Part shown: one piece after another, positions 51,223-54,779 of the stretch
Numbering within the stretch: the first letter of the stretch is position 1
How the letters are laid out: each line of letters starts with the position of its first letter
The notes under the pieces: model-generated
Seen by the model: the letters and a program-made list of their open reading frames with translations, nothing else
Told to the model about the DNA's origin: nothing
Database searches by the model: none
Program-made: the position numbers and the translations under genes
Assembly: GCF_013623775.1 (NCBI RefSeq)
Contig: NZ_JABFAM010000007.1
Span: 1-64,000 of the forward strand
Direction: 5' to 3'
DNA: 64,000 nucleotides
Source of the DNA: Rufibacter sp. XAAS-G3-1
Lineage (GTDB): Bacteria > Bacteroidota > Bacteroidia > Cytophagales > Hymenobacteraceae

Positions 51223-52200
51223 GAAGCCAGTCTCAAGGGTTCTAAAGAATGCATCCAGAATTTTTGCTAAAAACGCCTATCTTGCCTAGGCTTTGAAGCG
51301 TCAGCGGGAAGCCCAATTCCTGTGAGGCAAAGCTAGGTCTAAAGGCTAAAAGATGTTTTGGGGGAAGATGGAGTGTTGAATGGTTTGCATCCTGGTCATG
51401 CCTACCTTAAACCGCTGGTGGCCCAACGATGAAATTTGCCGCAGCACCAACGGGGGCTCTACCTGTAAACCTGTTTTAGGAAACGCGACCCGTGACCATT
51501 CCTTGGCTCCGTACGCGGCAGTTTCTAGTCCGCACTGGTTGGGAGATATTGAGATTGACCCTTTTGATGCGAACACAGCCTGGTTTGTGACGGGCTACGG
51601 CGTTTACCAGACCACGAACCTGCGGGAAGCCGACCAAAACCGCCCCGTCGCCTGGACGTTTCAGAACAAAGGCCTGGAAGAAACGGTACCCCTGAAACTG
51701 GTCAGTCCACCGGCCGGAGCCCCCTTGGTGAGTGCCATTGGTGACCTAGACGGTTTCCGGCATGATAATTTAGATGTCTCGCCAACTGCCGGCAGGTTGA
51801 ACCCACGTTACGGCACCAATACCTGGATTGACTACGCAGCCCATCAGCCTGCTTTCATGGTGCGGGTGTTCAACAATACCGATGGGAAATATGGGGCTTA
51901 CTCTATAGGCGGCGGTACTGCCTGGACTTCTTTTCCTTCGGCTCCTGCTGGGGCAAACGGGGGCGGAACCATCGCGGTTTCCGCGGATGGGAATACGTTG
52001 GTGTGGGCTCCATCTGGAGTAACGTCGGTTTATTATTCCACCAACCGGGGCACCAGTTGGAGGGCCGCCACTGGCATTTCCAAAGCGAATCTGAAGCCCA
52101 TGGCCGACCGGGTGAACGCCCGTAAGTTCTATCGGTATGTTATGCCCAATGCTAAAAATCAAAAACGTCGATATTCAAGGATTCTTCGTAAATTAGATAT

Positions 52201-52730
52201 GTGAAAAGTAAGAAAGAGACTGGGCTTGACTTTATCATCGATAAGCTTACCAACAGCATAGAGAACGTTGTAACGGGCGACAGCTTCGCCACGGAAATAT
52301 CTGTACTTACCCATGCGGACTTAAAAACCGTAACAAAAAAGAACGGTTGGCTCTTCAATTGGCGGGCGGAATTCAAGGAACCTGTAAAGGATATTTACAA
52401 ACTTACCATCGTCAACAATCCGACAATCATTCAAGGATCATAAGCCTTGAGGTAAAAGAAGACCACGTCTATATGCATTTGGTTGAGAGTGCCCCTTTCA
52501 ATAAGGGCAGCGGCAAGATGTATTCCGGAGTTCCCGGCAACTTGGTTGCGTTTGCCTGCAAACTCTCTTTTCAGCGTGGACACGAAGGCAACGTTTCCTT
52601 CATCTCCAAAACCCAGTTGATAGAGCATTATGAGAAAACTCTCGGTGCAATGCACTTCGGCGGGCGCGTAATGGTAATTGAGACGACTTCAGCCCTGAAA
52701 CTCATTAACCGATATTTTAAAAACCAATAG
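52201..52730 (+). pseudogene. GNAT-like protein gene of the cassette, single frameshift
   Basis: Starts GTG at 52201: KSKKETGLDFIIDKLTNSIE...TKKNGWLFNWRAEFKEPVKD...NNPTIIQG, then one base appears missing near 52438 and the protein continues in the next frame as IISLEVKEDHVYMHLVESAP...YSGVPGNLVAFACKLSFQRG...ISKTQLIEHYEKTLGAMHFG to the stop at 52730 (about 176 residues). The C-terminal half (GNLVAFACKLSF, HYEKTLGA) is reminiscent of the GNAT acetyltransferase fold. I recall similar Bacteroidota proteins paired with a small downstream partner, but cannot verify this. A toxin role is speculation. Confidence 0.65.
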
Positions 52731-52731
52731 G

Positions 52732-52914
52732 ATGAAAGCAAAGAAAATAGAGTTGGACGTTGATTATATCGGCGGACAGGAGCCTTTGACCGCAGAAGAG
52801 GAAAAAGCGCTTAGCGAATTCTTTAAAAAGCGCAAAACAGAATCTAAAAGAGTTGCCGCTGTCAGAAAAGCAAAGCCAGCAAATAGCAACTTAAGACAAT
52901 CTCCTCGCCAGTAA
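52732..52914 (+). CDS. Small basic-tailed partner protein of the cassette
   Basis: 60 residues, one base after the previous stop. MKAKKIELDVDYIGGQEPLT then AEEEKALSEFFKKRKTESKR and a Lys/Arg/Ala-rich C-terminus (RKAKPANSNLRQSPRQ). The size, acidic-then-basic layout and tight spacing suggest a cognate partner such as an antitoxin or adaptor; no known domain is recognised. The frame is intact although its partner is frameshifted. Confidence 0.6.
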   Translation: MKAKKIELDVDYIGGQEPLTAEEEKALSEFFKKRKTESKRVAAVRKAKPANSNLRQSPRQ

Positions 52915-52925
52915 AAAGAGCATAG

Positions 52926-52995
52926 GGCATCGGTCTCGTATAAACATCATGCTACGGCCGACGGCCTAGCACGTTGTTTATATGAGACCGATGCC
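52926..52995. repeat. 70-nt imperfect hairpin spanning the cassette/GH74 junction
   Basis: Arms 52926-52959 and 52963-52995, with one bulged C (52955), mismatches 52947/52974 and 52949/52972, and one G-T pair. The outer 12 bp, GGCATCGGTCTC, pair with GAGACCGATGCC at 52984-52995, which encodes the resumed GH74 residues ETDA. So the cassette carries the inverse complement of its own target. Confidence 0.88.
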
Positions 52996-53750
52996 GGACG
53001 TGTCTTGGTGAGTACCAACGGAGGCACCTCTTTTACGGCGGCTGCTACCGGCTTGCCTACCGTGGCCAGTTGGCAGCTATGGGCTTCCAATATTCATCCC
53101 ACCTACGGAGTGGAGGGTGACGTGTGGCTGACAAACCAGAACGGAGGACTGTACCGCTCCACCAATTCGGCAGGTTCTTTCACTAAGATTACCAACGTGC
53201 AGGAAGCCACCAAAGTAGGGTTCGGGAAAGCGAAAGACGGTAACACGTATCCAGCGGTGTACCTAGTAGGAAAGGTGAATAATCAAATGGGCTTTTTCCG
53301 CTCAGATGATGCAGGTGCCACCTGGGGGAGAATTACGGATGACCAGCACCCGTTTGGCGGCATCAATGACATCACCGGTGATACCTGGCCACGGCCGGGC
53401 GGGGCATCCTCTACGGCAATATTCCCGGTGTTATCAATGGCATAGCCGATGAACGAGAGGTAGAGCTTAAGTACGGGCCCAATCCCTTCGCCAAGGAGCT
53501 GCGCGTTCAGGCGCCTCATGGGTTCACCTATGAAATCAGGACGTTGACCGGAGCCTTGGTGGAAGCGGGAAGCAGTTCGGGCAAGCTACGGTAGGAGAGG
53601 CCCTGGCACCGGGGTTGTATGTCCTCAAAGCCAGGTACAGAGCCCGCGTGAGCACCATTAAGATTGTCAAGAGATAAGCAGCAGAGGAAACCATCACTCA
53701 CCCATCGGCCCCGGCCGGTACCATTCTGTTTTACACCCAATTTTCAAAAA

Positions 53751-54779
53751 ATGACTTACAAACTATCCCGTCTCAGACGATTTTCCAGTTTGGTTTTGTG
53801 GTAATGGCAATGGCTTGTTCCACTTCAGAAAAGGTGCAGCAGAATTCTAACTCTAATGCCAGTTCCTCCGCAGGCCAGGAGGGCAGCGGCATCAACATGA
53901 CCCATGAAACCCAAATAAATGAGTTGATTGGGAAAATGACCCAGGAGGCGAAAGTGAACATGATTCACGGGGTGTCTTCCTTTTCCTCGGGCGGAGTTCC
54001 GCGCTTGGGTGTTCCTGAGATGGTGATGTCAGATGGCCCGCAGGCGGTACGGCCGCGACTGGTCGCTGGACAATGCAGGCAATGACTCCTCCGCTTATCT
54101 TCCCACCGGCGTTGCTTTGGCCGCTACCTGGAATCCCGAGCTGGGATACGCCTTCGGGGAGGTATTGGGCAGCGAGGCGAAGACGTGATTCTGGGGGCCG
54201 GCGTCAATATCATGCGCACGCCTTTGAACGAACGTAATTTTGAGTATTTGAGCGAAGACCCGTATCTGACCGCGCGCATGGCCGTTGGTTATATAAAAGG
54301 AGTGCAAGACCAAGGGGTTGCCGCCAGTGTGAAGCACTACGCCGGCAATAACCAGGAAATTAAACGCGCCAAAGTAAACGTAGAAATGAGCGAGCGGGCC
54401 CTACGCGAGATTTACCTACCTGCTTTCAAAGCCGCCATCACCCAAGGCGGTGCCTTAACCATTGTGGGCGCTTCTAACAAATTCAGAGGTCAGTACAGCA
54501 CCCATAACCAGTACCTCATCAATGACATCCTGAAAGGAAAGTGGGTCTTAAAGGTTTGGTGATCAGCGACTGGGGAGCCGTTCTGAATACTAGGAAGCCA
54601 TCAACAACGGCACCGATATTGAAATGGGCACCGATTTGTTGCAGATGGCTAATATCAACTACAACAAGTTTCTGCTGGGCGGCACGGTGATTCCCTTGGT
54701 GAAAAGTGGCCAAGTGAAAGAAGCGCTTATTGATGAAAAAGTACGTCGCATCTTGCCGGTCATGTACCACGTAGCTTAA
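53751..54779 (+). pseudogene. GH3 beta-glucosidase, truncated with several frameshifts
   Basis: Corrected reading: lipoprotein-type start MTYKLSRLRRFSSLVL, frameshift, MAMACSTSEKVQQ; then INELIGKMTQEAKVNMIHGV, VPRLGVPEMVMSDGP, frameshift, GRDWSLDNAGNDSSAYLPTG, frameshift, ILGAGVNIMRTPLNERNFEY, YLSEDPYLTARMAVGYIKGV, SVKHYAGNNQE, frameshift, GLVISDWGAV with the nucleophile Asp, frameshift, then INNGTDIEMGTDL, closing RRILPVMYHVA. At least five frame breaks. Only the (alpha/beta)8 domain is present (about 340 codons versus 700-800 in intact enzymes). GH3 enzymes finish xyloglucan or beta-glucan oligosaccharides, matching the GH74 remnant next to it. Confidence 0.9.

Follow-up and report, generated by a model that had tools for sequence, protein, structure and literature searches.

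A cassette of an integron-like platform in Rufibacter and the probable rewriting of its attC site from one arm to the other

The DNA analyzed here, a stretch of 64,000 nucleotides referred to below as the window, holds a gene remnant interrupted by an integron-type gene cassette of 851 bp (52140..52990, plus strand, as are the parts of the remnant, the cassette genes and the hairpin elements given below). The edges were set by comparison with relatives. Specifically, a search for homologues of the host gene in 60 genomes of the family matched nine, one of which was the window's own; in the others the gene is uninterrupted (8/8, 65-83% identity), placing the insertion at TATG|ATGCC. These relatives read KFYxY-DAEAGRV or close to it at the insertion point (Y-D-A-E-A-G), not E-T-D-A. 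Since a single crossover at TATG|ATGCC fits their sequence, the insert comprises 52140-52990, the bases GAGACCG (52984-52990) belong to the element, and only ATGCC (52991-52995) belongs to the host. Comparison with the relatives places the left crossover between the host G and the cassette TT (52139..52140), and both the cassette start, GTTATGCCCAATGC, and the right crossover, CCG|, agree with the attC family pattern described below. The initial annotation of this DNA had proposed that removal of 52139-52983 rejoins the host codons in frame and that all 12 bases at 52984-52995, read as E-T-D-A, are host sequence. The interruption of the gene was confirmed, but with edges at 52140-52990; of the 12 bases ATGCC is indeed host, while the other seven (GAGACCG) are attC, as the eight relatives indicate. 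In-frame rejoining carries little weight, since the host gene is a remnant with a frame break of its own: about 335 of its 822 codons are gone from the start of the 5' side (51392..52138), and the frame of the 3' side (52991..53585) is broken near 53376-53394. An intact homologue matched Sortilin-Vps10/BNR in Pfam, the gene having first been named GH74. The window copy also lacks two codons (6 bp) present in all eight relatives, a difference that adjoins the insertion and is not accounted for by a clean crossover; a deletion between short repeats could be its cause. Relative to the homologues the insertion was precise, lay at a non-attI site and caused no duplication, as for secondary (attG) insertion by IntI. 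Downstream of the remnant, a gene at 53798-54562 that is GH3-like by eye is apparently split over several frames, and the region looks decayed.

The cassette carries two genes. The larger one, whose homologues have about 176 aa, lies in two pieces (52201..52443 and 52449..52730), its frame being broken between 52438 and 52448. Intact homologues occur in other Bacteroidia, and the second piece was matched in 77 of 395 genomes, the window's own included. A 60-residue partner gene (52732..52914) is conserved beside the larger gene, with which it recurs side by side in other Bacteroidia; a partner match was present in 17 of the 19 loci examined. The cassette gene was found in none of the other listed genomes of the window's genus. 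Searches against NCBIfam and PADLOC at E 0.01 returned nothing and Pfam returned sub-threshold matches only, so that no family model names either gene and the description of the larger protein as 'GNAT-like' is not supported. The expectation that the cassette has no recombinase of its own and must move in trans was borne out. Several of the 19 homologous cassette loci in other Bacteroidia begin with GTT motifs mirrored downstream, and the attC covariance model introduced below gave one weak match across them (58 kb, E 0.18). A distant cassette homologue in another family of the class (L098) begins with GTTATGCCTAATGC, almost the start of the window's cassette; the model found no attC there.

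At the right end of the cassette lies the 70-nt hairpin (52926-52995) that had been noted at the outset. It proved to be real: folded as DNA it reaches -29.1 kcal/mol with a z-score of -8.06, a value equaled by none of 200 shuffles, and its inverted repeat (52926-52954/52967-52995) has 29-nt arms that are 90% complementary. The left side begins with the R'' box region, GCATAGGGCAT (52920..52930), which lacks AAC and differs by one base from the reverse complement of the start of the cassette itself (GCATTGGGCATAAC). This is followed by the tract CGGTCTC (52931..52937), which complements the right arm and occupies the place of AAC and a 3-nt spacer in sister sites, and by the L'' box, GTATAAAC (52938..52945), assigned from the fold, the sister alignment and covariation. 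The fold and the sister alignment also define the apical stem, CGGCCGACGGCC (52955..52966). On the right side stand the L' box, GTTTATAT (52976..52983), with one mismatch to L'', and the right spacer GAGACC with the crossover G of attC (52984..52990). The host bases ATGCC (52991..52995), identified from the relatives, pair with GGCAT of R'' and complete the right arm. The left arm as a whole reads GGCATCGGTCTC. Among all loci fetched, the 12-mer at 52984-52995 and its complement occurred only in those covering the window site itself. A search of 51500-53500 against Rfam gave three matches, all far below gathering scores.

A search of the window's own genome with 52100-53040 returned 35 matches, all of which, except the query itself, covered the hairpin region. 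On contig C18 they form clusters, at roughly 0.4-1.7 kb, and several are close to the end of a contig. When the 34 further copies were aligned, most followed the pattern YYYAAC-3 nt-GTATAAAC-core-GTTTATAC-5 to 6 nt-GTTRR, and judged by their sequence these copies are integron attC sites. The hairpin had initially been described as lacking integron core boxes. This is true of the window copy, which has lost the AAC kept by all 26 aligned sister sites, but the sisters do have RYYYAAC ... GTTRRRY. GAGACC recurs as the right spacer in 8/26 of them, while ATGCC follows in 0/34 further copies. The copies elsewhere bear out in part the refuting alternative named at the outset, by which the matched bases derive from the element. 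Over the 26 aligned sites, 83.0% of cells were paired and covariation was 0.212 as against 0.101 when shuffled (0/500 shuffles as high). The stem contains opposed mismatches (T.T in 16/26, C.C in 6/26, A.C in 26/26 and C.C in 24/26, from alignment and predicted fold), and neither the alignment of the 26 sites nor the predicted fold has a one-sided extrahelical base. Shorter variants have gaps near the apex. A covariance model built from the 26 sites scored the window site at 65.5 bits and, at E<1e-5, detected 49 distinct attC-like sites in the window's genome, many of them in cassette arrays; at E 0.01 it also had matches in 7 of the 38 further genomes from the order. Moreover, in 138 array cassettes (10 were skipped) R'' mirrors the cassette's own start at 87% of positions 4-9, compared with a permuted mean of 36% and maximum of 42%.

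Small attC arrays and single sites distant from the integrase (for example G013:C1:1200430-1203718) were common in the four genus genomes searched. At one locus (L018) a gene for an IS110-family transposase (37-912; PF02371, PF01548) lies directly past the attC right arm (attC 936-1005). Ends like CGAAATCTATGA stand at attC in four more loci (L020, L024, L009 and L017), gene content having been checked in L018 only, and these like ends suggest insertion of an IS into attC. Insertion sequences known to enter attC include the IS1111-attC elements. At the left ends of L012, L013, L019 and L024, attC left arms are preceded by the same sequence, GTTGTGCAACAAGCACA, which is probably another insertion-sequence end.

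Read from sequence, the arrays in Rufibacter, Pontibacter and kin directly follow the gene of a tyrosine recombinase that points the same way and is accompanied by a conserved attI. In 16/16 genus genomes this enzyme matched TIGR02249 in two pieces, split near 180/241, with the IntI-specific stretch missing; the cut-off was passed in 0/16. Similarly, the alignment of IntI4 breaks at 178|248 against 385|412 of the query, and the IntI1 matches cover 927 nt, or 309 codons, against 271 residues of the query. A structure predicted from 29 sequences (mean pLDDT 80.8) matched XerA, XerH and IntI4 over residues 204-482, and in this model a helix at 378-391 is followed by one at 408-422, with no extra helix predicted between them. 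At its N-terminus the enzyme is extended by about 200 aa, modeled as two similar strand-strand-helix-strand-strand-helix-strand units (9-75 and 112-179), which may resemble a HARP domain. The extension gave no Pfam match over cut-off, and none of the solved structures matched it convincingly in sequence; the structure comparison covered 204-482 and thus barely included it.

Relatives of the recombinase at E 1e-40 were present in 34 of the 60 family genomes: 14/14 in the window's genus, 2/2, 12/14 and 6/8 in three others, and 0/8 and 0/14 in the last two. Sites matching the attC covariance model were found in 39/39 sampled genomes of the first four genera and in 0/21 of the last two, a co-occurrence that, with so few genera, does not amount to 60 independent events. 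Three genomes (G023, G039 and G050) have attC sites, and the recombinase was not found in them. At 61 named recombinase loci all attC matches (E 0.05) lay downstream of the enzyme and on its strand, the minus-strand ones overlapping plus-strand ones, and no match occurred in about 281 kb upstream. Where at least 1.5 kb of downstream sequence was available (37 loci), attC was present in 28 and absent in 9. A candidate attI motif ending in GTT lies 132-155 nt past the last codon of the integrase in 38 of the 42 loci examined among the 61 named; of the remaining four, two have it at 40 and 180 nt and two do not match the pattern. In the own genome its GTT is at 4677 of L014. An inverted repeat in the motif covaries (0.268 versus 0.115, 0/500; 33 aligned). 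Plasmid pls1 of Pontibacter kalidii (L255, NZ_CP111080.1) likewise carries the enzyme together with attI, as well as attC sites, three in number (E 8e-9, 7e-7 and 1e-4). This plasmid is mobilizable and has an IS110 transposase gene within its array. A second, frame-broken integrase precedes an attC array in the own genome (L021; G000:C20:24234-24952), and two genus genomes (G005 and G007; loci L076 and L078) hold a divergent integrase (39% and 53% identical where it aligns) whose N-terminal part is different. A search for direct repeats downstream of distant integrases (Formosa, Fulvivirga, Maribacter, Crocinitomix and one Pontibacter) revealed no attC-like family, although a divergent attC would escape it; a two-copy Fulvivirga repeat was rejected as attC since it folds no better than shuffles.

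Against this family the left arm of the window site stands out. From the cassette start, GTTATGCCCAATGC, an R'' of about GCATTGGGCATAAC is expected, and what is found is GCATAGGGCAT followed by CGGTCTC. Because R'' mirrors the cassette's own start in array cassettes, the GGCAT of the window R'' would have been there before insertion, whereas AAC and the spacer appear to have been replaced by the exact complement of GAGACCG. Sites were scored by the longest near-perfect run starting in the R''/spacer region, with one mismatch allowed, over 243 distinct sites, of which 150 came from the window's genome and four others of the genus and 93 from the attC matches at recombinase loci. The run was at most 13 nt in 239/243 and 14-21 nt in the remaining four. 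Three of these pair through R, spacer and L (the window, 21 nt; L253:15391, 21 nt; L253:14797, 19 nt); the fourth, L232:2007, has a run of 14 nt through spacer and L only, and its R' reads ATT. Since the two L253 sites are neighbors in one array, the four may not be fully independent. In a fifth site, L212:4004, pairing extends through the spacer, but different DNA stands in place of the R'' region. In an arm-swap control on the 238 remaining sites, runs of at least 14 nt arose in 2 of 23,701 pairs and runs of at least 19 nt in none; with the odd arms included, the counts were 27 and 6 of 14,515 pairs. In all four long-run sites it is the left spacer that is odd, most other sites having a left spacer of 3 nt, and in all four the left arm is the exact complement of the right over the rewritten tract, as quasipalindrome correction predicts. 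In E. coli, quasipalindromes grow more perfect through template switching (PMC7202029).

We therefore consider it likely that an integron-like cassette entered at a secondary site and that its left attC arm was later rewritten from the right arm by template-switch (quasipalindrome) correction. The cassette would belong to the platform of the Rufibacter/Pontibacter group, in which a tyrosine recombinase whose gene lies elsewhere, on contig C17, would normally join attC to the attI just downstream of its own gene. In the window the secondary site G|ATGCC in the gene remnant would have been used, presumably by this enzyme. The inserted attC would have been an imperfect palindrome, with GGGCAT-AAC-ATT-GTATAAAC on the left and GTTTATAC-GAGACC-G|ATGCC on the right; its left side is reconstructed from sister sites and the cassette start. 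During copying of the top strand by a polymerase, the nascent strand, which would be the bottom strand since it is the left arm that was rewritten, may have folded back after the L box and copied its own GAGACCG complement. It could then have regained the template via the 5-nt microhomology ATGCC, by chance common to the host and the R'' box. Such a return through ATGCC would account for the point at which the perfect arm stops and for the loss of AAC, although an order in which the spacer changed first and AA was lost later fits equally well. The outcome would be the conversion of AAC-ATT to CGGTCTC and one 21-nt stem with a single mismatch, and, with its left arm now matching the right, the hairpin would have come to resemble an inverted copy of the target. 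In VCR sites a paired spacer lowers recombination (PMC2727003). By analogy, a paired central spacer should make a poor recombination substrate, and the window cassette is probably locked in place.

It had been suggested that the inverted copy is made on entry; this could happen if the left arm were copied from the hairpin as replication resolves the integrated single strand. Integron junctions are resolved by a replicative pathway and not by a second strand exchange (PMC7790495, PMC4792948), and the left arm was indeed rewritten from the right. By strand reasoning, however, bottom-strand copying would rewrite the right arm, whereas the left spacer is the odd one in 4/4 sites, and in three of the four the rewritten part is element only. 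Since these three show the same rewriting, the process seems to belong to the palindrome and not to entry, and copying during insertion appears unlikely. It is quite unlikely that the window cassette is a member of a distinct, working attC subtype with a fully paired spacer: the feature occurs in 4/243 sites, two of them neighboring in one array, but the four left spacers differ in sequence or length, each complements its own right spacer, and the window site lacks the AAC present in all 26 aligned sisters.

The other half of the initial suggestion, that the integrase picks targets complementary to the R'' arm of the cassette and that the 12-bp match is a signature of this choice, fared no better. 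R'' GGCAT does pair with host ATGCC in the window, but in the remaining 7 of the 12 pairs both partners belong to the element. Solo sites were defined as those alone in a fetched locus; 40 solo loci hold 52 sites, 30 are single-site and 24 of these 30 were parsed, their empty sites being unmapped. Comparison of each site's own R'' with its right flank gave 1.63 of 6 positions matching as against 1.84 when permuted (p 0.88), and with no excess we regard complementary target choice as very unlikely. The targets themselves read GTT in 21/24, which makes the G|AT of the window unusual; of the three non-GTT sites, L245 is probably misparsed. Hairpins are prone to chimeric-read artefacts and several attC matches of the own genome lie near contig ends, but it is equally improbable that chimeric reads gave a false perfect palindrome, the feature being present also in G009 (3 contigs) and G006 (1 contig) and the window site lying inside a 462-kb contig.

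Rewriting by template switching after entry thus remains our preferred reading. Quasipalindrome template switching, as studied with lacZ reporters in E. coli (PMC7202029), shares the perfecting of an imperfect inverted repeat by arm-to-arm copying; here, in contrast, it is a recombination site that is palindromic, and the event has been deduced from genomes and not from a measurement. In the open-access literature searched, a scope with preprints and most subscription papers outside it, we found no report of attC arm correction or of these arrays. With integrons the platform shares arrays in which every short cassette closes with a folded attC that carries R'' (RYYYAAC), L'', L' and R' (GTTRRRY), an asymmetric unpaired attC spacer, an R'' that mirrors the cassette start, solo cassettes elsewhere, and an attI that ends in GTT and adjoins the integrase gene. 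As in CALINs (attC clusters without a nearby integrase) and attG insertions, attC cassettes occur away from the integrase; use of attG sites in genomes by IntI1 has been reported (PMC12901181). Unlike integrons, the Rufibacter group has an integrase without the IntI-specific insertion (the additional I2 domain) and with the N-terminal extension, co-oriented with the array, whereas a divergent gene is usual, if not universal, in integrons; its attC stem has opposed mismatches in place of one-sided extrahelical bases, and a covarying inverted repeat lies within its attI. Extrahelical bases are docked by the I2 helix, which PMC7790495 describes as the acquisition that moved integron integrases from double- to single-strand recombination. 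The enzyme also differs from the XerA/XerD-type simple tyrosine recombinases and the 'integron-like subgroup' of PMC8138268 in adjoining attI/attC arrays.

We give an even chance to the broader reading that Rufibacter, Pontibacter, Adhaeribacter, Botryobacter and Sabulibacter carry an integron class without IntI, in which the recombinase has no I2 helix and attC has no one-sided extrahelical bases. Such a class would either have survived from a pre-I2 (duplex) stage of integron evolution or have invented hairpin recombination independently, perhaps via the N-terminal extension, and its attC sites would also be worn out by template-switch correction. A natural platform of attI, attC and arrays without I2 would allow a direct test of the step from double- to single-strand recombination. 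The only complete Bacteroidetes integron in IntegronFinder 2.0 is that of Salinibacter ruber M1 (PMC9024848), and the platform brings a further bacterial family into integron maps, which show hardly any for Bacteroidetes, with one plasmid-borne example, on pls1. The rewritten arms suggest, finally, that attC palindromes may be self-correcting, and cassettes would become fixed in position as a result.
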